DNA from: an uncultured Mucispirillum sp.
GTDB lineage: Bacteria > Chrysiogenota > Deferribacteres > Deferribacterales > Mucispirillaceae
Direction: 5' to 3'
Length of the DNA: 45,632 nucleotides
Assembly: GCA_944326705.1 (NCBI GenBank)
Contig: CALVEY010000019.1
Location: 1 to 45,632 of the forward strand
In this document: positions 2,561 to 35,875 of the stretch, in pieces
Numbering within the stretch: position 1 is the stretch's first letter
How the letters are laid out: every line of letters begins with the position of its first letter
The notes under the pieces: model-generated
The model's database searches: none
What the model was told of the DNA's origin: nothing
The model's input: the letters and a program-made list of their open reading frames with translations, nothing else
Translations under genes and position numbers: made by a program

Positions 2561-3835
2561 TTAATTTTGTTTTGTTACAGTGTAGTTATGTTCTGCCATT
2601 TCTTTTTCATAGGAGCCGATTTTTGAGATTTTATCCATAATATTTGTTATCTCAATTATTTCAGGCTCTTTTGGCAGCTCTGGGGAAATAAGCGGCGATA
2701 TTTCTGATACTCTTATAACCCTTTGCCATATATTTACAAACTGCTCTTCTTTCAGTTTATTTTTAGCAACTTTTGCTATAAGCACTTTTTTACCATTATC
2801 ATTTAAAAGGCTGTTTACTGCATGATATATTACATAGTCGCCGTTTTCCATACCGCCATACATTATTACATGACCTTTAAAAAATATTAATGTTCTAAAT
2901 GGCTTTGCATTGCGTAAAACTGCATAAAATTCTTCTTCACTTTTTGGCTTATCAATCAATTTTTTACCAACCAATTTCTGCAGACCAGAACTTCTTGGAA
3001 TATCTGCACCAAAAACACGCCATAAGTCACGAACATAAGCAGAACAGTCTCTATACCCTTCTTTTCCACCCCAGTCGTATGGGTTATTTAACTGGCTTTC
3101 TGCCATAGCTTTCATTAATGCTTCATCATATACAGCATTGCCTATTACAAAAGAACCGTCTTTTAATGCTGTTGTATAGCTGCCCTCAGGAGTTAATATT
3201 ACTACCTTTTCATTATCCTGAGATAAAAGAGGCACTTTATCACCTATGCCGTATTTTACACTGCCTATTGTTATATTATCTTTAATCACTCTTATAAAAG
3301 GCATCTGCTGAATACCAGAAAAAGCAACCTGAGAATATATTTTGATTTTACCAGCAGGCACCCAGCCCCGCATAAACTCAGTCATAATATAGTAAAATTC
3401 CCTGTCTTTTGACCTGTGCAGAACAAATACAGGTGCAAATGCACTTATTCTTGTATACTGATTAGAATCAAACTTTTCATTACCTCTGTGGATTGTGTGG
3501 TTTGTAGGATAAAGACGCATATTAAGGCTTTCTGTAGTAAAGCCCACCTGCGGCACAACAATTGATGGAATACCGCTTACATTTCTATTATCTTTTATAT
3601 TTTCTAAGTCTTCCTTAGTCATTGGTCTGTCATCTATAAATGAGCCTTTATATGCAAGCCTGTCAAATGTTATTAACTTGCTTAATTCATAGCGGCTGAT
3701 TTCAAATAAATATTTATTTGTATCTGTATAAAAATAATAAGGTGAAAACTTGCTTTTACCAACTGATGAGCTGGAACAGGAAAGTATCATTGAGGTCAGA
3801 ATAACTGTTACGACTAATAATATCTTTTTGCTCAT
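2561..3835 (-). CDS. NlpC/P60-family lipoprotein with SH3-like domains
   Basis: A 424-residue predicted lipoprotein and cell-wall hydrolase. The N-terminus is a lipoprotein signal sequence ending in ILSC, with the lipidated Cys at 20. A central segment (about 95-235) has the spacing of bacterial SH3 domains (NMRLYPTN, RGWVPAGKIKIYS). The catalytic NlpC/P60 domain spans about 240-375: Cys264 in YRDCSAYVRDL, His322 in FKGHVIMYGG and His338 in YHAVNS form a plausible Cys-His-His triad. The family cleaves peptidoglycan stem peptides in the periplasm. A ggagg site overlaps the end of the upstream DUF2007-like gene, 11 bases away, so the two are probably one operon. The C-terminal ~50 residues are a charged tail without a recognised fold. 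Confidence 0.87.
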   Translation of the reverse strand: MSKKILLVVTVILTSMILSCSSSSVGKSKFSPYYFYTDTNKYLFEISRYELSKLITFDRLAYKGSFIDDRPMTKEDLENIKDNRNVSGIPSIVVPQVGFTTESLNMRLYPTNHTIHRGNEKFDSNQYTRISAFAPVFVLHRSKDREFYYIMTEFMRGWVPAGKIKIYSQVAFSGIQQMPFIRVIKDNITIGSVKYGIGDKVPLLSQDNEKVVILTPEGSYTTALKDGSFVIGNAVYDEALMKAMAESQLNNPYDWGGKEGYRDCSAYVRDLWRVFGADIPRSSGLQKLVGKKLIDKPKSEEEFYAVLRNAKPFRTLIFFKGHVIMYGGMENGDYVIYHAVNSLLNDNGKKVLIAKVAKNKLKEEQFVNIWQRVIRVSEISPLISPELPKEPEIIEITNIMDKISKIGSYEKEMAEHNYTVTKQN

Positions 3836-4077: not shown

Positions 4078-4432
4078 ATCTAGCCATAATATATTATTTT
4101 CGGTAAAATGCAATAAAAAATAAGTAAAAAAATTTTATTCTTTTATATTCATTATTAATTACTTATAAATCAAATCTAATGAACTGCTGTTACATTTAAT
4201 TAAACTATTTTGTGGATAACCTGTGGATAACTTTTTCCTAATATAATGCTTAAAACTATTGATATTTCAAGAATATATAAAATTACCTTTATATATCAAT
4301 AGTTTATAAAAAAGTATTGATATATAAGGCAAAACTTTTGTCAAGCATTTTTTTTAAAATTAAATTGTGGTTAAGCTGTGGATAACTTATGTTGATAGAG
4401 ATTATTTTTTCAGATTTAGCAAGCTCTTTACT
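4078..4432. promoter_or_regulatory. intergenic region with three DnaA boxes and ATTGATAT motifs
   Basis: Three exact TGTGGATAA sequences at 4211-4219, 4222-4230 and 4377-4385. Read on the minus strand they match the DnaA consensus TTATCCACA. The first two form a double box separated by 2 bp (TTATCCACA-GG-TTATCCACA on the minus strand). Between them and the third box lie three copies of [CG]TATTGATAT: 4256-4265 (+), 4293-4302 (-) and 4314-4323 (+). The surroundings are extremely AT-rich. No gene is visible here. The same combination recurs at 24.0-24.6 kb. Origin, DnaA-titration site or DnaA-regulated promoter are all possible. Confidence 0.6.
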
Positions 4433-4462
4433 ATGCTGCTTAAAAAATAAGCAGCATTTTTT
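4433..4462 (+). terminator. plus-strand intrinsic terminator with no annotated gene upstream
   Basis: atgctgctta (4433-4442) and taagcagcat (4448-4457) form a perfect 10-bp stem with a 5-base loop, followed directly by a run of T. This is a textbook Rho-independent terminator for rightward transcription, yet all nearby genes run leftward. In the leftward direction no T run follows the stem. It suggests a plus-strand non-coding transcript from the DnaA-box region. Confidence 0.75.
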
Positions 4463-4474
4463 ACATAATTTTTT

Positions 4475-4711
4475 TTATTTTACCCATAATACAGGCGCTG
4501 AAAATGGTGTATGAGAGCCTGTTATTAAAGTATCTGTTCCTTTATATTTTTTTATAATTTCATTTCTTGATTTAACAGCTGCTTTTTTATCTACATCAAA
4601 GCTGACTGCTGTTTCTGGATATTTCATCTGCACATTATATATGTGAAATAAATCTGCCACATAATGAGGCGAACCCCATTTATTTGTCCAATAAATGGGG
4701 TTCGCCTCATA
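4475..4711 (-). pseudogene. 3' remnant of a metallo-beta-lactamase-fold hydrolase gene
   Basis: The readable fragment (VADLFHIYNVQMKYPE..., ending LITGSHTPFSAPVLWVK) is the C-terminal end of an MBL-fold metallo-hydrolase: the FDVDKKAAVKSRNEI helix and the GSHTPF strand-loop are the family's last conserved blocks. The metal-binding HxHxDH half is absent. The frame is open upstream through a 21-bp perfect inverted repeat, reading about WTNKWGSPHYVADLF, back to the secF stop at 4730, with no start codon except GTG at 4660. About three quarters of the gene has therefore been lost, apparently by a deletion that left an inverted duplication at the junction. It is probably not functional. Confidence 0.65.
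4664..4710. repeat. perfect 21-bp inverted repeat with 5-bp loop
   Basis: Arms at 4664-4684 (begins atgaggcgaaccccat) and 4690-4710 are exact reverse complements around a 5-base loop (tgtcc). It lies 19 bases past the secF stop and could act as a 3'-end structure for the sec operon, but no T run follows on the minus strand. The arm nearer the pseudogene is part of that gene's old coding sequence. Confidence 0.85.
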
Positions 4712-19535: not shown

Positions 19536-20527
19536 ATTCTTCGCTGACGCTCAGAATAGACAGCACTGTGTCACTCTAAGTGAGTAATACGAAACGAAGA
19601 GTCTTTTTACTATCTTCCAAGTTTACTATAACTATTCAAAATATTTGCAGTAGTTATAAATATTATATAAACTATATTCTTCGCTGCGCTCAGAATAGAC
19701 AGCACTGTGTCACTCTGAGTGAGTAATACGAACGAAGAGTCTTTTTACTATCTTCCAAGTTTACTATAACTATTCAAAATATTTGCAGTAGTTATAAATA
19801 TTATATAAACTATATTCTTCGCTGCGCTCAGAATAGACAGCACTGTATCGCTCTGAGTGAGTAATACGAACGAAGAGTCTTTTATTATCTTCAAACATTG
19901 CTGTAACCAGCCAAAATATTTATGGTAGTTATCTATATTATAAAAATTAGATTCTTCGCTGCGCTCAGAATTGACAGCACTGTGTTACTCTGAGTGAGTA
20001 ATATGAACGAAGAGTCTTTTTACTATCTTCCAAGTTTACTATAACTATTCAAAATATTTGCAGTAGTTATAAATATTATATAAACTATATTCTTCGCTGC
20101 ATTCAGAATAGACAGCACTGTGTCGCTCTGAGTGAGTAATATGAACGAAGAGTCTTTTTACTATCTTCCAAGTTTACTATAACTATCCAAAATATTTGCA
20201 GTAGTTATAAATATTATATAAACTATATTCTTCGCTGCGCTCAGAATAGACAGCACTGTATCGCTCTGAGTGAGTAATACGAACGAAGAGTCTTTTTACT
20301 ATCTTCCAAGTTTACTATAACTATCCAAAATATTTGCAGTAGTTATAAATATTATATAAACTATATTCTTCGCTGCGCTCAGAATAGACAGCACTGTGTC
20401 GCTCTGAGTGAGTAATATGAACGAAGAGTCTTTTTACTATCTTCCAAGTTTACTATAACTATCCAAAATATTTGCAGTAGTTATAAATATTATATAAACT
20501 ATATTCTTCGCTGCGCTCAGAATTGAC
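19536..20527. repeat. tandem array of seven ~138-bp units plus a partial eighth
   Basis: Units begin with attcttcgctg at 19536, 19676, 19814, 19951, 20089, 20227, 20365 and 20503 (partial); spacings are 140, 138, 137, 138, 138, 138 and 138. Each unit has a GC-richer half (ttcttcgctgcgctcag, then agacagcactgtgtcgctct, ending cgaagagtc) that can fold on itself. The AT-rich half carries the inverted pair tataacta/tagttata. The third unit's AT-rich half is the most diverged. There is no long reading frame across the array, so it is non-coding. Confidence 0.92.
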
Positions 20528-20569
20528 AGACTGTATGCTGTATTTAAAAACATACTCACACTCATATAT

Positions 20570-22318: not shown

Positions 22319-23776
22319 CTATAAAAGCCCTGCAAGTTTCATTGTTTCAGTTATTCTTTTTGCAAGTTCATCACATGGAAGAAGTGTTGCTACGCTGTCC
22401 ATTTCAGGACCTTTTGTGCTTCTTGTAACACCTGAGCGCACTGCCATGTATAATGGTTTGCCTTTTGTGCCTGTTTCTTTTTGTATTTCTTTCATGATTG
22501 CTCTATATGTTTCTAAATCAAGATACTCTTTGCCTGCTATTTTTGAAAGGAATAAATCAAGCACACCTTTACTTGTTTCAAGAGCAAGCATTTCACGGGC
22601 TTCTTCAGTTATTTCATCAGGCAGTTTAAAATATACCTGTAAATATTCTGGAGCATCGCTTAAAAGTGTAAAATTATCGCGCACAGATAAAAGCATAGCT
22701 TCCATTTTTGCTTTATTTTCGCTTATATATTTTTCATCTGCAAGACCTGCTGATATTATATAAGGCTTGCAAAGCTCTAATAATTCAGAAATTTCTTTTG
22801 AGCGGATATATATACCGTTCATCCATTTTAATTTATCAAAATCAAATACGGCAGCACTTTTTGACACACGGCTCATAGAAAATTTTTCTTTTAATTCATC
22901 TATTGTAAAAAGCTCTCTTTCATCATCTGAGCTCCAGGAAAGAAGAGACATATAGTTAATCATAGCTTCTTTTAAATATCCTGCTTTTCTAAACTCTTCT
23001 ACACTTGTATTGCCGTGTCTTTTAGAAAGTTTTGCATGGTCTGGACCTAATATCATAGGAATATGAGCAAATACAGGTGCTTTTTCGCCTATTGCTTCAT
23101 AGATTAAAGCCTGTTTTGGAGTGTTTGATAAGTGGTCATCGCCCCTTATAACATGGGATATTTTCATTAATGCATCATCTATTACAACAACATAGTTGTA
23201 TATTGGTGCGCCGTCTGGGCGGATAATAATAAAATCACCAAAAGCATTTGTTGGAAATTCAATATCGCCGTGTATCATATCATGCACCATAATAGTTGGT
23301 TTAAATGCACGAAATCTAATAGATGCTTTTTCGCCCCTTGCTTCTCTTTCTGCTATCTCTTCTTTAGTAAGATGAGCACATTTACCATTATATATATATG
23401 CTCTGCCTTCTTTTTGAGCTTTTTCACGGTCTGCATCAAGCTCTTCTTTTGTGCAGAAACATTTATAAGCATATCCATCTTCAATTAATTTTTCAGCATA
23501 TTTATTATATATGTCAAACCTTTCTGTCTGGCGGTATGGACCATATTCGCCGCCTTTTTTAGGGCCTTCATCATAATCAAGACCGAGCCACTCCAAATCT
23601 TCATATATAAGCTCTTCACTTTCAAGGGTAGACCTTTCTAAATCTGTATCTTCAATACGAAGTATAAATTTACCACCCTGACTTCTGGCAAATAAATAGT
23701 TAAAAAGAGCTGTTCTCACATTACCTACATGTATGTGCCCTGTAGGGCTTGGAGCAAAGCGAACACGAATAGACAT
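22319..23776 (-). CDS. gltX: glutamyl-tRNA synthetase
   Basis: Class I aminoacyl-tRNA synthetase charging tRNA-Glu (and possibly tRNA-Gln in organisms using GatCAB). About 485 residues. RFAPSPTGHIHVGNVRTALFNYLFAR holds the HIGH-type motif, and the KMSKS equivalent is KLSKRHG. GDDHLSNTPKQ is a conserved catalytic-domain block. The C-terminal helical anticodon-binding domain ends with KGPEMDSVATLLPCDEL. The ATGs at 23782 and 23776 both follow AGGAG; I chose the second because the family begins just before xRVRFAPSPTG. It is the first gene of gltX-der-sugE, and its promoter lies in the long divergent region to the right. Confidence 0.96.
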   Translation of the reverse strand: MSIRVRFAPSPTGHIHVGNVRTALFNYLFARSQGGKFILRIEDTDLERSTLESEELIYEDLEWLGLDYDEGPKKGGEYGPYRQTERFDIYNKYAEKLIEDGYAYKCFCTKEELDADREKAQKEGRAYIYNGKCAHLTKEEIAEREARGEKASIRFRAFKPTIMVHDMIHGDIEFPTNAFGDFIIIRPDGAPIYNYVVVIDDALMKISHVIRGDDHLSNTPKQALIYEAIGEKAPVFAHIPMILGPDHAKLSKRHGNTSVEEFRKAGYLKEAMINYMSLLSWSSDDERELFTIDELKEKFSMSRVSKSAAVFDFDKLKWMNGIYIRSKEISELLELCKPYIISAGLADEKYISENKAKMEAMLLSVRDNFTLLSDAPEYLQVYFKLPDEITEEAREMLALETSKGVLDLFLSKIAGKEYLDLETYRAIMKEIQKETGTKGKPLYMAVRSGVTRSTKGPEMDSVATLLPCDELAKRITETMKLAGLL

Positions 23777-24766
23777 AATCATTATCTCCTATTGCACTGA
23801 TTAATTATATATTAAACTATTACTTATATATGTTTTTCCTAGAAATACAAGAAAAATTTTTATATTTACCTATTTTTAAGCAAAATCAGTGGTTTTGTTT
23901 ACAAGGGAACATCTCTTTTTAACTTAAAATTCAGGGCATTTTTATCTGCTTAAATTTTAAGCAGCAAAATAATCTATTTGATATTGCGATAATATTTTAT
24001 TATTTTCTGCCTACTTTTCCACAGGTTATCAAAAAGAAACTTCTTAATTTTCCATAGAGTATTATATATTATTGATATTTCGTTATTCTCGCATAAACCA
24101 TTGATAACACAAACAAACTTTTCTATTGACATAAAAAAGCCTTATTTTTCAAGGCTTTATATATATAAAGTTTTCCACAGGTTATCCACATAATTTATGG
24201 AGTAATGCAAAAACCATTGACATTCTTAAAAATATTTTCAGCATGCAGTTTTTTTAATCATATTATATTCTAAAAAAATTTCTTTCAATTTGTTTTTACA
24301 TAAACTATTTTTAAATTTTAAGTTTAATCAGTCTGTTAAGATAATTTTTTAATTATTTTATATAATAATCTTATGATTTTTCTTTAATATTTTACATATA
24401 CCATTAATATGCAAGCATTTTTACAGATACACAATAACATTGTTTTATTTTTATTATTATCTACTAATTTAATAGATTATTTTTATAATTTGTAAAACAA
24501 AACATATCTTTTTAATCTCATTATTTGCGGACTTGTAAAAAGTATTGATATAACATAATTATATACACTTTTTAATTTTAAACCTTTTTTTTATTATGTA
24601 TTAAATTTGATTAAAAAATGTTGACAAATTTCAATTTATATATTTAAATAGGAAAGTGCAAACATCATTACACGATTACATATTCTATTTATCATATTAA
24701 TAAGGAATTTAGCATCTTAAAAAAGAGATGATATAAATTTAATATAATTTATAAAGGAGTGCGTTT
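23777..24766. promoter_or_regulatory. 990-bp divergent intergenic region with double DnaA boxes and ATTGAYAT motifs
   Basis: No coding frame is visible. ttttccaca-gg-ttatccaca (24171-24190) is a double DnaA box with 2-bp spacing, and a degenerate copy, ttttccaca-gg-ttatcaaaa, lies at 24015-24034. Five [CGT][TC]ATTGA[TC]A motifs lie at 24069, 24098, 24123, 24214 and 24542. A hairpin aagcctt/aaggctt (about 24137-24158) lies between the box pairs. The region is extremely AT-rich and separates leftward (gltX) from rightward (sdh) genes. The 16-mer aaaaagtattgatata also occurs at 4309-4324. Candidate origin or DnaA-regulated region. Confidence 0.6.
24621..24649 (+). promoter_or_regulatory. candidate sdh promoter
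   Basis: TTGACA at 24621-24626, a 17-base spacer and TTAAAT at 24644-24649. The -10 element is poor but sits in a TATATTTAAAT context. The implied leader to sdhC is about 110 bases, long enough for post-transcriptional control. Confidence 0.5.
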
Positions 24767-25162
24767 ATGCCTAGAAAAGATTTAGAAATTTCGGCTATGG
24801 GCTACCGTAAACACCCTGGTATGGTTGCATGGATACTGCACAGAGTAACTGGTGTTCTTCTTGTGCTTTACTTTATCCTGCATATGTTAGGCTCTGGCGG
24901 TGTATGTTCTTTCCTGCCAACAATCGTTCAAAACATCTATGTTGAAGCAATTGTCATCATTATGTTTGCATGGCATGCTATGAATGGTTTAAGAATCATA
25001 TTTATGGAATTTTTTAAAGCTGCTGAAAGGGGCTGTTTTAAGAAATTTCTTGTTATCTTTACAGTATTAGCTGTATTACTTGCCCTTGTGGGACTATACT
25101 ATGTTAAAGATGTTATCGCAGCAAACTCTGCAGCGAATGTAGAATCAGCTGAGGGAGAGTAA
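24767..25162 (+). CDS. sdhC: succinate dehydrogenase cytochrome b subunit
   Basis: Membrane anchor of succinate:quinone oxidoreductase. 131 residues with three membrane helices. HPGMVAWILHRVTGVLLVLYFILHMLGS is the typical SdhC start, with a heme-ligand candidate His in the first helix and WHAMNGLRIIFMEF in the second or third. AAAGGAGTGCG precedes the ATG. The stop is 2 bases before sdhD. The C-terminal tail is short, soluble and Ala/Glu-rich. With SdhD it binds heme b and quinone and attaches SdhAB to the inner membrane. First gene of sdhCDAB. Confidence 0.92.
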   Translation: MPRKDLEISAMGYRKHPGMVAWILHRVTGVLLVLYFILHMLGSGGVCSFLPTIVQNIYVEAIVIIMFAWHAMNGLRIIFMEFFKAAERGCFKKFLVIFTVLAVLLALVGLYYVKDVIAANSAANVESAEGE

Positions 25163-28299: not shown

Positions 28300-28435
28300 T
28301 GGGGATATTCTTAAATAATGTATTTTATCTATTTATATAATCAGCTTATATAATTTAATATATAACAGCAAAACTTAATTGCATTTATTATATAAATTGT
28401 ATATTATGATTTATTATAATTTTTATGGTGAGCAG

Positions 28436-31400
28436 ATGTCATTTACAAAACTTTTAGATAAATTTAGAGAAGAAGCAAAAAACAAAAGAGAACAAGGCAC
28501 ATTATTTGAAAAATTTACTCAAAAATATTTAACTATTTCTACAGTGTATAAAGAAATGTATGAAAAAGTTTGGTTATGGCAGGATTTTCCATATAGAGAT
28601 GGTGCAGATACTGGCATAGATTTAGTCGCAAAACATAAATATGAAGATAAATATACTGCTATACAGTGTAAATTTTTTGAAGAAGGCTCTACCATACATA
28701 AAAGTGATATAGATTCTTTTATATCCTGCAGTGGCAAAAGTTTTAATATAGATGAAAAAAAATATTATTTTTCTAACCGTATAATAGTAACTACTGCATC
28801 ACACTGGGGAGCAAATGTTTTATCTACTATAGAAAACCAGCAAATTCCAACAACTCGTATTGATTTTAATGACTTTTTATATGATGAAAATATTGACTGG
28901 TCATCATTTACAGAAAATAATATTGATACATTACAATATAAAACAGAAAAGAAATCTATACGACCACATCAGAAAGAAGCTATAGAAAACATATTAAAAG
29001 GCTTTGAAACTGCTGATAGAGGCAAGCTGATAATGGCTTGTGGCACTGGTAAAACTTTTACAAGCTTAAAACTGGCAGAAACATTTGGTGCAGGTAAAAA
29101 TATCCTTTTTCTTGCTCCATCAATTTCTTTAGTATCGCAAAACATAAAAGAATGGTTATCAGAAAGTTCTATTGAAATAGGCTGTATTCCTGTATGTTCT
29201 GACAGCAGCGTTGGCAAAAAAGAAGAAGATAGTTTTAGTGATAGTTTAAGTGAATTTCAATATTCAGCATCAACAAATATAGATGATTTTATATCAAGAT
29301 ATAATGGTATGCCTGACAATGTAATGAAAGTAGTATTTTCAACATATCAGTCAATAGATGTAATATATGAAGGGCAAAAGCAGTGCGATTTTGAGTTTGA
29401 TTTAATAATATGTGATGAAGCTCACAGAACAACGGGAGCAAAAATTTCTGACAAAGATGAATCATATTTTACTAAAATACATAATAATGATTTTATAAAA
29501 GGCAAAAAAAGAATTTATATGACTGCCACCCCAAAAGTTTTTAGTGAAAACATAAAGAAAAAAGCAGAGGATAGCGAAGTTATTTTATGGTCTATGGACG
29601 ATGAAGAAGTATATGGTAAAGAACTTTATAAATTATCTTTTGGTAAAGCAGTAGAAAATAACTTATTAAGTGATTATAAAGTAATAATATTAAGTGTAAG
29701 CCAAAGCTATGTTCATAAATACTTTCAAAATAATATGAATATGGGCACATTAGATGATTATGGTAAAATAATCGGTGTATGGAACGCACTGTCAAAACAT
29801 AATTTAAGAGATGAAACAAACTATACAGAATTAAATGACCCAGAGCCAATGAAAAGAGCAGTAGTTTTTACTGGCACAATTAAGGCATCTAAAGATTTTA
29901 AAGATATGGTAAAAGAAGCATCTACTGTATTTGATTATGAAGCAAAAGGACTTGTCAAATTAGACATAGACCATATAGACGGCAAAATGCCAAATATTGA
30001 AAGAAATAAAAAACTGCATTATTTAAAAGAAGAACCAGAAGAACATACATGTAAAATACTTTCTAATGCAAGGTGTTTATCTGAAGGAATAGATGTGCCT
30101 TCTCTTGATGCAGTTGTATTTCTAAGCCCAAGAAGTTCTATGGTGGATATAGTGCAGTCTGTAGGCAGAGTTATGAGAAAAAGTCCAAATAAAAAATACG
30201 GCTATATAATTCTCCCTATTGTAGTGCCTGATGATGTTGCACCAGAAGTAGCTCTTAATGATAATAAAAGATACAGTGTAATATGGGATGTGTTGCAGGC
30301 TCTCCGCTCCCATGATGATAGGTTTAATAATATAGTAAACTCATTGAAATTTAATAAAAGAAATGAAAGAAAAATTATAGTAGACCATATAACTGATAAA
30401 GATGACGGGGAAATAATAACAACCCATGATTTAAATCTTGAAATTGAATTTCATGACGCTTTAGCAGATGCATTATATAATAAAATAGTGCAAAAATGCG
30501 GCGATAAAATCTACTGGGAAAAATGGGCATCAGAAGTAACGGATTTAGCAAAACTGCACATTAAAACTATAAATGAATTATTAGAAGAAAATAAAAATAC
30601 TAAAACCGCATTTAATTCATTTTTACATATATTAAGGGCAAATTTAAATAACGATATAACCCAAGATGATGCAATAGAAATGATAAGCCAGCATTTAATA
30701 ACAAGACCTATTTTTGAGGCTTTATTTTCTACATATTCATTTGTAAATAATAACCCAGTATCAAAAGCCATACAAGAAGTATTAGATAATATGGACGATG
30801 GCAGGCTTATAAAAGGCTCTGAAAAATTAAATAAATTTTATGATTCTGTTAAAAGAAAGGTTGATTCTATAAAGACATCAGAAGAAAGGCAGATGATTAT
30901 TAAAGAATTATACAGCAAATTTTTCAAACTTGCCTTTAAAAGTGCATCTGAAAAATTAGGTATAGTTTATACACCAGTAGAAGCAGTTGATTTTATAATA
31001 AAAGCAGTAGAATATGCACTAAATAAACATTTTAGTAAGTCTATAAGTGATAAAGATATACATATAATAGACCCATTTACAGGCACAGGCACATTTATTA
31101 CAAGGCTTTTACAAAGCGGATTAATAAAAGATGAAGATTTAGAATATAAATATAAAAATGAAATACATGCTAATGAACTTGTTTTATTAGCATATTATAT
31201 TGCAGCTATTAATATAGAAGAAACATACCATACATTAAGTAAAAAAGAAGAATACACCCCATTTGAAGGTATTGTTTTAACTGATACTTTTCAGCTGGCA
31301 GAAACAAAAGATACTATAATAGACATAAAAGAAAAAAACTTTTTAGAAGAAAATTCATGCCGTCTTATAAAACAGAAAAATGCACCTATAAAGGTTATCA

Positions 31401-33145
31401 TTGGCAACCCACCATATTCTGCAGGTCAAAAATCTGAAAATGATAATAATAAAAATACAAGGTATGAAAAACTTGAAAAAGCCATATCAGATACTTATGC
31501 AAAACATTCAACAGCTACAAATAAAAATAGGGTAAATGATTCTTATGTAAAAGCATTTAGATGGGCAACTGACAGACTTGAAGATAATGGTATAATTTGC
31601 TTTATTACTAATAATGGTTATATTGATTCAAGTTCTTTTGATGGTTTTAGAAAATGTATAAGAGAAGATTTTGCATATATTTACTGCTTTGATTTAAAAG
31701 GTAACATAAGAAAGTTTAATAAAGACGAAGGAGAAAATATATTTGGTAATGATAATATGACTGGTGTTGCTATTCTTTTACTTATTAAAGATAAAAGTAA
31801 AAATGAACATGCCACTATAAATTACAGCACTGTTCCAAATAACCTAAAAACAAAAGAAAAATTAGAATATATTACAAAACATTCAATAGATACATTAAAC
31901 TGGGAAGTAATAACACCAGATAAAAATAATGATTGGCTTAATAAAAGAAATGATGAATTTGAAAAATTTATTCCCATTGGTGATAAAAAAGCTGATAATA
32001 ATAAATATATATTCAATATTTATTCAAGAGGCATAGCAACTAGTAGAGATAATTGGTCATATAATTTTTCCAATAATAATCTTAAATCTAATATTTCAAA
32101 CACTATTAATTATTATAATAGCGAAGTAACTAAATTAGAAAATGGACTAATTACAGAAAAAGAAATAACTACTGATGACACAAAACTAAAATGGTCTGAC
32201 ACCCTAAAACAACAGCTAAAAAATAAAAATATGCTTGAATTTAGTAGTAAATATATTACAGTTTCTGCATATAGACCATTTTCAAAACAATATTTTTATT
32301 ATTACAAACCTTTGATAGAAAGAACATATCAAATGTTAAATATTTTTCCAACACCTAAACATAATAATATCTTAATTTCTACTAATGGCATTGGTTCTTC
32401 AAAATATTTTCTTCCATTTATTGCAGATAAGATATTTGATGTGAATACACTTGATGCTGGCACTCAATGTTTTCCATTATATTATTATACTAAATATGAT
32501 AATACAAATGCCATTGAAAAACTAAATGAAGAAGTAGATGAATATGGATATACAAAAGAATGTGCCATAACTAATTATGCTTTAGAAGAATACCAAAAAA
32601 AATATGGAAAAGAAGTAACAAAAGAAGATATTTTTTATTATGTATATGGTATACTGCATAATAAAGAATACAGGGAAAAATATTCAAATGATTTAAAGAA
32701 AACACTTGCCCGCATACCTTTTGTAAAAACTATTGAAGATTTTAATGCTTATAATAAAGCTGGCAGAGATTTAGCAGAAATTCATTTAAATTATGAAACA
32801 ATAGAGCCATATAATTTAGAAGAAGAATGCAAAGAAAACCCAAGTTATAAAGTAGAAAAAATGAAATGGAATAAAGAAAAAACAGAATTACAGTTTAATA
32901 ATGATATTCTATTTAAAAATATTCCACCAAGAGCATTAGAATATGTAATAAATGGCAGAAGCCCTATTGAATGGGTTGCAGACCAGTATAAAATATCAAT
33001 ACATACAGCAAGCGGAATAAAAAATGACCCAAACTTATATTCTACTGATGAAAAGTATATCTATAATCTAGTAAAAAGAGTAGTAACTGTCAGTTTAAAA
33101 ACATTAGATATTATAGACAACTTACCAAAATTTGATGTGGAGTAA
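28436..33145 (+). CDS. type ISP restriction-modification enzyme (nuclease-helicase-methyltransferase)
   Basis: About 1569 residues. Domain order: an Mrr-like PD-(D/E)xK nuclease (Asp62 in GIDLVA, QCK at 77-79); a superfamily 2 translocase (CGTGKT about 202-207, DEAH 327-330, MTATPK, SVGRVMRK about 573); a gamma-class adenine methyltransferase (DPFTGTG about 879, NPPY at 991); and a C-terminal target-recognition region to the end. This is the single-chain LlaBIII/LlaGI layout, which methylates one strand of an asymmetric site and cleaves foreign DNA after translocation. The start at 28436 has GGTGAG just upstream; an in-frame ATG 57 bases earlier lacks a site. The gene is A-rich compared with sdh, a hint of transfer. 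All catalytic motifs are intact, so it is probably active. Confidence 0.93.
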   Translation: MSFTKLLDKFREEAKNKREQGTLFEKFTQKYLTISTVYKEMYEKVWLWQDFPYRDGADTGIDLVAKHKYEDKYTAIQCKFFEEGSTIHKSDIDSFISCSGKSFNIDEKKYYFSNRIIVTTASHWGANVLSTIENQQIPTTRIDFNDFLYDENIDWSSFTENNIDTLQYKTEKKSIRPHQKEAIENILKGFETADRGKLIMACGTGKTFTSLKLAETFGAGKNILFLAPSISLVSQNIKEWLSESSIEIGCIPVCSDSSVGKKEEDSFSDSLSEFQYSASTNIDDFISRYNGMPDNVMKVVFSTYQSIDVIYEGQKQCDFEFDLIICDEAHRTTGAKISDKDESYFTKIHNNDFIKGKKRIYMTATPKVFSENIKKKAEDSEVILWSMDDEEVYGKELYKLSFGKAVENNLLSDYKVIILSVSQSYVHKYFQNNMNMGTLDDYGKIIGVWNALSKHNLRDETNYTELNDPEPMKRAVVFTGTIKASKDFKDMVKEASTVFDYEAKGLVKLDIDHIDGKMPNIERNKKLHYLKEEPEEHTCKILSNARCLSEGIDVPSLDAVVFLSPRSSMVDIVQSVGRVMRKSPNKKYGYIILPIVVPDDVAPEVALNDNKRYSVIWDVLQALRSHDDRFNNIVNSLKFNKRNERKIIVDHITDKDDGEIITTHDLNLEIEFHDALADALYNKIVQKCGDKIYWEKWASEVTDLAKLHIKTINELLEENKNTKTAFNSFLHILRANLNNDITQDDAIEMISQHLITRPIFEALFSTYSFVNNNPVSKAIQEVLDNMDDGRLIKGSEKLNKFYDSVKRKVDSIKTSEERQMIIKELYSKFFKLAFKSASEKLGIVYTPVEAVDFIIKAVEYALNKHFSKSISDKDIHIIDPFTGTGTFITRLLQSGLIKDEDLEYKYKNEIHANELVLLAYYIAAINIEETYHTLSKKEEYTPFEGIVLTDTFQLAETKDTIIDIKEKNFLEENSCRLIKQKNAPIKVIIGNPPYSAGQKSENDNNKNTRYEKLEKAISDTYAKHSTATNKNRVNDSYVKAFRWATDRLEDNGIICFITNNGYIDSSSFDGFRKCIREDFAYIYCFDLKGNIRKFNKDEGENIFGNDNMTGVAILLLIKDKSKNEHATINYSTVPNNLKTKEKLEYITKHSIDTLNWEVITPDKNNDWLNKRNDEFEKFIPIGDKKADNNKYIFNIYSRGIATSRDNWSYNFSNNNLKSNISNTINYYNSEVTKLENGLITEKEITTDDTKLKWSDTLKQQLKNKNMLEFSSKYITVSAYRPFSKQYFYYYKPLIERTYQMLNIFPTPKHNNILISTNGIGSSKYFLPFIADKIFDVNTLDAGTQCFPLYYYTKYDNTNAIEKLNEEVDEYGYTKECAITNYALEEYQKKYGKEVTKEDIFYYVYGILHNKEYREKYSNDLKKTLARIPFVKTIEDFNAYNKAGRDLAEIHLNYETIEPYNLEEECKENPSYKVEKMKWNKEKTELQFNNDILFKNIPPRALEYVINGRSPIEWVADQYKISIHTASGIKNDPNLYSTDEKYIYNLVKRVVTVSLKTLDIIDNLPKFDVE

Positions 33146-33150
33146 AGAAA

Positions 33151-33936
33151 ATGGGAAAAAATAACCAAACAGATAAAACAAAAGTAGTTTTAACCATTCA
33201 TTCAGATGATAAACAAGAGTTATCATTATTCACACAAACTCTAAATTCATTTGGTGATATTTTTTATGGAACAATAAAAGAGTTTGATGGTAAAGGAAAT
33301 AATACAACAGTATATATTCAAGAAATTAAAAAAGGTTCTTTTGTAATTGATTTTCTTTGTGCAGTTCAACCTATTATCCCAACTCTTTTAGCAAATTCTG
33401 GTGAAATATTATTTAATAAAATTAAAGATTTATGGGAAAAATTGCTTAATGAAAAACAACCAGAAACAACACATGAACTAAAGATGATGAAAGATACAGC
33501 AGATATGGTTGAGATAATAGCAAATAACCCAAATGATAATATGACAATAAATATAAATATTAATGGTAATAATAATGCAATTAGTTTTAATAATGTAGAT
33601 GCAAGTAAGGTAGTAAAATTTGCAAAATCGTTAAAAATGGAACAAGAAACAACTACATATAAAAAACTATTTATGCAATGGGAACAGAAAAATTTTAATG
33701 ATAAAAAAAGTGGAAATAAAGCAACAATTCCACATATTAGTTCAAAACCACTTAATGTATCATTTGAAAATAAAGATATTGAAAAAGAAATGACAACAAC
33801 TCATCCGAAGTTTCCAAATGTAGAATGGCAAAATTTATGGTATGTGGTGGATATAGAATATGTTACTTTAGGTGGAAAACCAAAATTTTATAATATACTA
33901 AAAAATTATAGTGAACTAACGACTATTGATGAATAA
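33151..33936 (+). CDS. unknown protein linked to the type ISP gene
   Basis: 261 residues, starting 5 bases after the type ISP stop, so almost certainly co-transcribed. I recognise no family. The N-terminal ~65 residues alternate strands and helices (VVLTIHSDDKQEL, NTTVYIQEIKKGSFVIDF). About 66-100 is amphipathic or hydrophobic (FLCAVQPIIPTLLANSGEILFNKIKDLW). About 128-148 is Asn/Ile-rich and repetitive (TININ, GNNNAISFNN), and the C-terminus is Trp/Tyr-rich (VEWQNLWYVVDIEYV). There is no signal peptide or catalytic motif. Its stop abuts the stop of the convergent RloB-like gene with no base between. A role as a defence accessory is inference from position. Confidence 0.75.
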   Translation: MGKNNQTDKTKVVLTIHSDDKQELSLFTQTLNSFGDIFYGTIKEFDGKGNNTTVYIQEIKKGSFVIDFLCAVQPIIPTLLANSGEILFNKIKDLWEKLLNEKQPETTHELKMMKDTADMVEIIANNPNDNMTINININGNNNAISFNNVDASKVVKFAKSLKMEQETTTYKKLFMQWEQKNFNDKKSGNKATIPHISSKPLNVSFENKDIEKEMTTTHPKFPNVEWQNLWYVVDIEYVTLGGKPKFYNILKNYSELTTIDE

Positions 33937-34533
33937 TTATAATAAACTAATAACATTTTCATGTATAAAATCTAACAAATCACTTTTAAATTTTATATTT
34001 GTGGCTTGGTGTGTTTTATATGCCTGCTTTATATTATCAAGGGTTATATCACAAGGAATAACACCTTTTTGATATTTTTTAAAAAGAGTTATACTATTTT
34101 TTAATAAGGCTATATATTCATCAGATATTAGTGGCATATTAAAATGATTTCTTTTTATTAACTTTTGTTCCCACTGTATAATAATATTATCATCTAAATG
34201 CATTATAAAAAAATCTTCAAAATTATATGTTGTAAATAAAAAATCTGGAATACTTTGTTTTTTTCTTAAATATTTCATTTGATTATTTTGCTCATTTCTT
34301 GTATAAATATCCTTGTCTACCCAAACTTTAAGATTTTTCCTATCCTTATGAGTATATTCTTCTACTTTATTCTTTACTGTTGCAAAATGCCCATTTCTTA
34401 ATAATACAGGATTAAGCACAATACTAATATTATGTTCATTTAAAATTCTATTAAGTATTTGAATATAAGCATATTCCGAACTACCTTCGCAAAGAATAAT
34501 ATAAGTTTTATGAGTCTTAAATATTTCAGACAT
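33937..34533 (-). CDS. RloB/AbiL-type TOPRIM-like protein
   Basis: 198 residues. YIILCEGSSEYAYIQIL (catalytic Glu candidate Glu16) and KVWVDKDIY (Asp73, Asp75) give the E...DxD arrangement of TOPRIM nucleases. TTYNFEDFFIMHL takes the place of the RloB N-x-x-F-E-x-W/F motif. Placed 7 bases after the RloA-like ATPase, with AGGTGATAT before its ATG, it forms the two-gene RloA-RloB arrangement, equivalent to AbiLi-AbiLii abortive-infection systems. It would be the nuclease effector of the pair. Its C-terminus converges exactly on the unknown gene. A plain OLD-like TOPRIM protein is the alternative. Confidence 0.75.
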   Translation of the reverse strand: MSEIFKTHKTYIILCEGSSEYAYIQILNRILNEHNISIVLNPVLLRNGHFATVKNKVEEYTHKDRKNLKVWVDKDIYTRNEQNNQMKYLRKKQSIPDFLFTTYNFEDFFIMHLDDNIIIQWEQKLIKRNHFNMPLISDEYIALLKNSITLFKKYQKGVIPCDITLDNIKQAYKTHQATNIKFKSDLLDFIHENVISLL

Positions 34534-34540
34534 ATATCAC

Positions 34541-35875
34541 CTATATATAAGGAAAAGGTATAGACGAAAATTCACCATTTAAATACCTTTTACGGAAATT
34601 GTCTGTATTTCTCACCCCATCAAATGATGATGCCTTACGAATAACTGTACCTGTTTCTATTTTTTTAGAAGTAAAGGCTATTTCTGAAACTCTTAATATT
34701 TCATCATCTAAAATATCTGTATTATGGGCTGTAAAAACAAGCTGTGCATTATTTTTATTATATCTTTTGCTTTTAAACATCTTTATAATTTCCCGTAATA
34801 CTAACGGATGTATAGAGCGTTCCAGCTCATCAATACACAATACTGAACCAGTATGCAATGCCATTAATATAGGACCTAATATGCTAGCTAATGTATTTGT
34901 ACCAAGTGATTCTTCGTTTCTAAAATCAAACTTAACTTCATTTTTATCAATATCTTTATGATATGAAAATATCTTATTGCTGTATAGTTTATTGTCTCTT
35001 ATAAAAAATTCTCCACCTATTTTTTTTATAGAATCTAAGCCATCTTGTGCACTTTCATTAATAAGTTCTTCTTCTAATTTAATATTAGTTATATCAAAAT
35101 CAAATTTTTTTAATATGTCTACAATTTCTTGAAAAGCTATTTGTCTATCTATCTTACATGACTTTTCAAAAATTTGAACTCCCAAGCCAACTGGAAATTC
35201 TGTATGCATTAAGATATATAAGTTATTATGTATATATTGTACAAAATTATTAACATACTTATTTAAACCAGCATAATTTTTATACATAACATTCAAAAAA
35301 GTTTTTTGTTGCAATTTATCAGGATTACAACATTCTACTTGGTATATTTCATTTATTTTTTTTGTATTATATGTTTCTGTGGTAATATTCTCTACATCTA
35401 AAAGTTCTTTCTTAATTGAATAGACTATATTATTATCAACACTTAATATTTCTTTCAAGATTGCATTGTCATTATATTTTAGTTCATATTTATATATTTT
35501 CTTATCTATACATATTTCTACTATAAAAACTGTATAATCATATTTTTTGTTAAGTTTATTTGGTTTGTATGCATTTGTTATACCTTCATCTATTACATTG
35601 TTCATTACAGACAATGCCTGTATTATATTTGATTTACCTGCTGCATTTGCTCCATACATTACAAGACATGGAACTGTTCTTATCACTTCTTTTTTAGTGA
35701 TAGTTTTATATTCATTTTTAATTTGCTTATTTTCTTTAATAGTTCGTTTTATCTCTAAAAATGGTAAAGTTTCCATTTCTTCATATCCATTAGGAGCTTT
35801 TCCTTCAGAATATGAAAAATCAAGAGTTAAATCCAATATTGACTTAAAATTTTGAACAGTAAATGATTTTATCAT
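34541..35875 (-). CDS. RloA/AbiL-type AAA15 ATPase (COG1106)
   Basis: 444 residues. An SMC/RecF-like ATPase: the N-terminal FTVQNFKSILDLTLDF strand pair, Walker A GANAAGKS at about 75-82, a long helical and strand-rich insertion, Walker B VLCIDELERSIHP near 350, and a switch His in VFTAHNTDIL. The C-terminal FRKRYLNGEFSSIPFP resembles the short C-terminal motif common in COG1106 proteins. It is first in an operon with the RloB-like gene. COG1106-RloB pairs are known phage-defence modules in which the ATPase senses or licenses a nuclease. The coding sequence is as AT-rich as the type ISP gene. Confidence 0.88.
   Translation of the reverse strand: MIKSFTVQNFKSILDLTLDFSYSEGKAPNGYEEMETLPFLEIKRTIKENKQIKNEYKTITKKEVIRTVPCLVMYGANAAGKSNIIQALSVMNNVIDEGITNAYKPNKLNKKYDYTVFIVEICIDKKIYKYELKYNDNAILKEILSVDNNIVYSIKKELLDVENITTETYNTKKINEIYQVECCNPDKLQQKTFLNVMYKNYAGLNKYVNNFVQYIHNNLYILMHTEFPVGLGVQIFEKSCKIDRQIAFQEIVDILKKFDFDITNIKLEEELINESAQDGLDSIKKIGGEFFIRDNKLYSNKIFSYHKDIDKNEVKFDFRNEESLGTNTLASILGPILMALHTGSVLCIDELERSIHPLVLREIIKMFKSKRYNKNNAQLVFTAHNTDILDDEILRVSEIAFTSKKIETGTVIRKASSFDGVRNTDNFRKRYLNGEFSSIPFPYI

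Follow-up and report, generated by a model that had tools for sequence, protein, structure and literature searches.

A twice-occurring DnaA-box and IHF-site module of Mucispirillum may be a datA-like control element

The window analysed here, the entire 45,632-bp contig C19 of genome G000 (a 2.39-Mb Mucispirillum draft in 79 contigs), carries two copies of one ~245-bp module, R1 (4211–4453) and R2 (23947–24190), in which pairs of DnaA boxes stand either side of a reversed IHF consensus. The gltX gene of G000 has its nearest named matches in Mucispirillum assemblies, which places the genome in that genus. By analogy with known systems, we put it at about an even chance that R2 and its sister R1 form a datA-like, non-coding DnaA-IHF control locus in another phylum. 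datA is the textbook site of IHF-dependent DnaA inactivation, described in E. coli. Were the reading correct, an element of the same order and orientation would exist in a lineage of a different phylum in which Hda was not detected, and DNA-templated control of DnaA through IHF bending would be either ancient or repeatedly evolved; the fixed geometry and an extra palindrome yield precise, testable predictions.

Architecture of R1 and R2

Read along the box strand, both copies present a palindrome (TGCTTAN5TAAGCA), a DnaA-box pair P, the reversed IHF consensus (WATCAANNNNTTR) and a DnaA-box pair D (Table 1). The 17-bp palindrome lies 67–68 bp from the first box of P in R1 and R2. That box is 79 bp from the IHF consensus on the opposite strand in both copies, and the consensus is 76 bp (R1) or 77 bp (R2) from the first box of D; boxes within one pair are 11 bp apart. 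Only two matches to the palindrome occur in the window, against 0.02 expected, and the R1 copy would fold into a hairpin of about −13 kcal/mol. We rejected the palindrome as a simple terminator, since a T-run comes after it on the + strand of R1 but not on the − strand of R1 or on either strand of R2.

Table 1. Positions of the module parts and of neighbouring genes in the window
Feature	Position	Strand	Sequence or remark
R1 palindrome	4437–4453		TGCTTAAAAAATAAGCA; ~10-bp stem counting flanks
R1 pair P	4366–4385	−	TTATCCACA (4377–4385), TTAACCACA (4366–4374)
R1 central IHF-consensus site	4294–4306	+	TATCAATAGTTTA; strand opposite to boxes
R1 pair D	4211–4230	−	TTATCCACA-GG-TTATCCACA; from genome-wide pair search
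R2 palindrome	23947–23963		TGCTTAAATTTTAAGCA; TGCTTAN5TAAGCA match at fixed distance to first P box
R2 pair P	24015–24034	+	TTTTCCACA (24015–24023), degenerate second box (24026–24034)
R2 central IHF-consensus site	24094–24106	−	TATCAATGGTTTA (WATCAANNNNTTR); 79 bp after first P box, 77 bp before first D box
R2 pair D	24171–24190	+	TTTTCCACA-GG-TTATCCACA; double box of the original prediction
SH3/NlpC-P60 protein gene	2561–3835	−	near R1 in 10/10 Mucispirillum genomes
gltX (glutamate-tRNA ligase)	22319–23782	−	R2 neighbour, palindrome/P side
sdhC-like succinate dehydrogenase/fumarate reductase membrane subunit	24767–25162	+	R2 neighbour, D side

The original prediction had pointed to the two double boxes that we call D, to a degenerate copy at 24015 and to a 16-mer common to both regions. 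All are present, the degenerate copy reading TTTTCCACAGGTTATCAAA and the 16-mer (AAAAAGTATTGATATA) starting at 4309 and 24537. The D pairs are the only two matches to TTWTCCACA-N(0–4)-TTWTCCACA in the 2.39-Mb genome, where the reversed-pattern control gave none. Single TTWTCCACA boxes are not enriched genome-wide (125 vs 170 for the reversed control), counts from which we infer that ~0.003 same-strand pairs would be expected at a fixed 2-bp gap.

The accompanying ATTGAYAT motifs fared less well. Five had been claimed between 24010 and 24555 and we count four (24071, 24125, 24216 and 24544); across the window ATTGAYAT is not enriched (12 observed, 10 expected), while the longer TATTGAYAT is (10 vs 3.5 expected). 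We rejected ATTGAYAT as the motif, since what is conserved is WATCAANNNNTTR in one set position. The central copy in R2, ATTGATAA at 24100–24107, is missed by the ATTGAYAT pattern. The copies at 24071, 24125 and 24216, together with the 16-mer at 24537, fall outside the fixed register of the module; the core of the 16-mer is also present in the equivalent position before sdhC in G003 and G006. A second conserved TTATTGATATTTC motif is found at window position 24071 (R2 register P+56) in four genomes (G000, G003, G006 and G009), and a conserved TTATCAAT/TATCAAT element near D of R1 in 10/10 genomes. Both are possible extra IHF-like sites.

Conservation across genomes

Alignment of ten R1 and eight R2 copies from Mucispirillum genomes, most of them drafts, bears out that the box cluster is conserved in relatives and present twice. 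The IHF site of R1 is perfect and in one register in 10/10 genomes, with 9/9 core positions invariant and the four N bases variable, against a background of 21% invariant positions. That of R2 is perfect in 5/8 (G000, G004, G006, G007 and G009), whereas G001, G003 and G005 carry damaged versions. The first P box of R2 is TTTTCCACA or TTATCCACA across the eight genomes, or has its last base changed (TTWTCCACT, TTTTCCACC), and the palindrome is intact in 6/10 R1 and 6/8 R2 copies, the weakened R1 palindromes belonging to related species (G001, G004, G005 and G007). The spacers of R1 and R2 are 25–50% identical where ~34% is expected at random, so that the common register is either selected or convergent. 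Given the background density of the IHF consensus (3.6e-4 per bp, both strands, low-GC stretches), the chance of an R2 site falling at the R1 register (±1 bp, same strand) is ~5e-4.

Nine of 10 Mucispirillum genomes contain the box-IHF-box pattern, as against none of 41 others from the Deferribacterota; the reversed control gave no hits, and a relaxed-box search of 20 genomes gave the same picture. The palindrome, in the same register, is found upstream of sdhC in two other genera of the family, in genus g2 (G010, G012 and G014) and in G011. In these four genomes the boxes in the places of P and D are degenerate, and an IHF-like match falls at 145–146, perfect in G012 and with one mismatch elsewhere. 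From this shared register in other genera, R2, with its link to sdhC, is probably the older copy. The G011 module sits between an NlpC/P60 gene and sdhC, genes whose Mucispirillum equivalents adjoin R1 and R2, respectively.

Candidate binding proteins

Both IHF subunits are encoded in the genome (IhfA, 114.4 bits vs an NCBIfam cut-off of 111; IhfB, 120.8 bits vs 115). The catalytic arginines of DnaA (R281, R285 and R334) are conserved in the genus, as aligned from G006. Hda was not found in the genome: the PF00308 matches are DnaA and a ZapE-like protein only, and we rejected the latter as Hda since its best match is ZapE.

Position of the replication origin

The original prediction took R1 and R2 for a replication origin, perhaps a bipartite one, and their tandem DnaA boxes, AT-rich flanks and local strand switch do recall an origin. 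Indeed, tandem boxes 2 bp apart are shared with oriC regions that have a basal unwinding system. We nonetheless reject an origin or bipartite origin on GC skew, location, R1–R2 linkage and the missing trio. In G000, dnaA-dnaN-recF-gyrB is not on the window contig, dnaA lying on contig C9. Skew was computed from sampled stretches, contiguous around both turns in G006, a complete relative (single contig, 2,347,083 bp). There it is mostly negative between ~0.28 and 1.42 Mb and mostly positive beyond, and the cumulative curve has its maximum at ~0.27 Mb and its minimum at ~1.424 Mb, coinciding with dnaA-dnaN-recF-gyrB. R2 (983.9 kb) is mid-replichore, 435 kb from dnaA, and R1 (1,517.9 kb) is 98 kb from dnaA with a secondary, shallower skew dip nearby. 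Elsewhere skew falls through both copies without a turn in G003 (C2, a 203-kb contig carrying both), and no turn marks R1 in G001, whose contig C65 is positive almost throughout. The strand switch holds locally, with gltX and the next gene on the − strand and sdhC onward on the + strand; from ~34 kb the genes return to the − strand, and the skew does not turn in any sustained way. The distance between R1 and R2 ranges from ~9 kb (G001) through 20 kb (G000 and G003) to 534 kb (G006), and hence a spacing of 20 kb is not conserved.

Unlike an oriC with a basal unwinding system, R1 and R2 are off the skew minimum and away from dnaA, and no conserved DnaA-trio (as defined in PMC8287927) or other unwinding motif was found adjoining their boxes. 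The dnaA-dnaN interval, on the other hand, has genus-conserved DnaA boxes and an AT-rich tract. G007, alone among the Mucispirillum candidates, also shows a clear complement of the DnaA-trio (CTACTACTATTACTT) beside a box. This interval (G000:C9, L001; G006 L082:14472-14815) is likely the true oriC of the genus. R2 itself is almost certainly not the replication origin, and we give very little credence to R1 and R2 as a second, accessory or bipartite one. The conserved DnaA boxes of the candidate oriC are ~245 bp apart, and everted TAAGCA...GCTTA half-sites precede dnaN in G000, G003, G008 and G009. Near the dnaA region of G006, IS3-like transposase genes seem to interrupt a cytochrome-type gene (L089 1718-4579; 1.4257–1.4286 Mb).

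Comparison with E. coli datA

In E. coli, datA requires boxes 2 and 3, is activated by IHF and is sensitive to spacing (PMC10380432), and a loop uniting DnaA on these boxes is postulated to trigger ATP hydrolysis (PMC10380432, PMC10950094). In NC_000913.3 box 2 is TTATCCACA (+), the IBS TATCAATAGGTTA (−) and box 3 TTATTCACA (+), with the IBS 65 bp past box 2 and 162 bp from box 2 to box 3. R1 and R2 resemble this arrangement in being intergenic, ~190 bp long, outside the candidate oriC and built of same-orientation DnaA boxes around one reversed IHF site (TATCAATAGTTTA in R1 and TATCAATGGTTTA in R2 against TATCAATAGGTTA), in a genome that encodes IHF. Box-to-box distances are 155–167 bp here, against 162 bp in datA. 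The two systems also differ. The IHF site is nearly symmetric in R1/R2 (79/76 bp) and offset in datA (65/97 bp), and datA has single boxes where R1/R2 have tandem pairs. datA has the additional boxes 7 (essential) and 4 (stimulatory), of which the partner boxes at +11 bp in P and D are possible counterparts. Moreover, R1 and R2 carry the extra palindrome, occur as two copies in Mucispirillum and lie in the phylum Deferribacterota beside other neighbour genes. As datA is not recognisably homologous in sequence to R1/R2, the likeness is architectural.

Drawing on the datA literature, the presence of IhfA/IhfB, the conserved DnaA arginines and the failure to detect Hda, we propose an IHF-folded contact between DnaA on P and DnaA on D as the working state. 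DnaA would bind the tandem pairs P and D, and IHF the central reversed WATCAANNNNTTR site, folding the ~175-bp segment so that DnaA molecules on P and D meet over the bend. The module would in this way control DnaA, most probably through hydrolysis of DnaA-ATP or sequestration, and limit re-initiation at the true oriC between dnaA and dnaN. By analogy with datA, the effect is presumed to be inactivation of DnaA and not its reactivation or titration only. The palindrome outside P is conserved as well and might serve to attenuate transcription or to bind a third protein.

Some observations weigh against a datA-like locus: in the other genera the boxes are degenerate and the IHF site is perfect in only 1/4; R2 has lost its perfect central site in 3/8 Mucispirillum genomes; and R1 contains a conserved A-tract with a CTTGACA block, a possible promoter. 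A more tentative proposal, which we hold somewhat less likely than not, is that the modules represent an undescribed class of DnaA/IHF control element in the Mucispirillum family, with a rigid palindrome-pair-IHF-pair register and two copies per Mucispirillum genome, standing in for DnaA inactivation by Hda and perhaps also recognised by a third factor that binds the palindrome.

Alternative functions

The module could instead be an upstream regulatory region through which DnaA and IHF tie the transcription of a neighbour to the cell cycle (NlpC/P60 at R1; gltX or sdhC at R2). It is always intergenic, gltX accompanies R2 wherever R2 was recovered, the NlpC/P60 gene accompanies R1 throughout and R1 has its conserved TTGACA and A-tract. 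Yet the neighbours vary by copy and genus (gltX, sdhC, NlpC/P60), an AMMECR1-like reading frame (recognised by eye) begins just after D in G011, an insertion of ~700 bp separates gltX from R2 in G006, and pair D of R2 is 577 bp from sdhC. The TTGACA is followed by no −10 element that is consistent between species, and on that ground we rejected a promoter there. We hold transcriptional coupling to be unlikely.

A DARS-like, DnaA-reactivating element or a simple titration site for DnaA would use the same ingredients, DnaA boxes and IHF sites (PMC10380432, PMC4245941), and the high-affinity boxes are indeed few but clustered. DARS1 and DARS2 of E. coli are likewise non-coding DnaA-box clusters, and DARS2 also uses IHF. 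By published description, however, the DARS core consists of three boxes (I–III), with Fis sites added in DARS2, and differs from the box-IHF-box order of R1/R2, whose boxes are all head-to-tail around one central IHF site, the order of datA; Fis, required by DARS2, is reported as gamma-proteobacterial (PMC4245941). Titration alone would need neither the fixed 155/156-bp spacing nor the IHF site, and we regard reactivation or titration as unlikely. Passages in PMC4585315 and PMC10950094 describe DnaA-box clusters outside the origin that are reported to repress untimely initiation in Bacillus subtilis and Streptomyces coelicolor, to which R1 and R2 can be likened by description, not sequence, as extra-origin clusters. 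Chance, or survival of an old duplication as a neutral remnant that has no function today, would suit the decay of R2 in some species and the degenerate outgroup boxes. It is very improbable, since the genus has preserved boxes, IHF core and distances although the spacers are randomised, and the palindrome is preserved across genera.

Genomic surroundings

The intergenic region holding R2 (23783–24766) contains short ORFs only, and an Rfam search of the window for structured RNA gave two tRNAs and nothing else. At 19536–20534 a 138-bp unit is repeated head-to-tail about seven times, and a 29–32-bp stretch of this unit recurs between gltX and R2 in G006 (L011:2111-2141). Beside the sdh genes, a low-GC island (28379–35875) encodes a 1588-aa type IIG-like restriction-methylation protein and an AbiL-like pair (33937–34533 and 34541–35875) and is a probable defence island. 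Finally, a near-perfect 47-bp inverted repeat (4664–4710) lies immediately downstream of secF.
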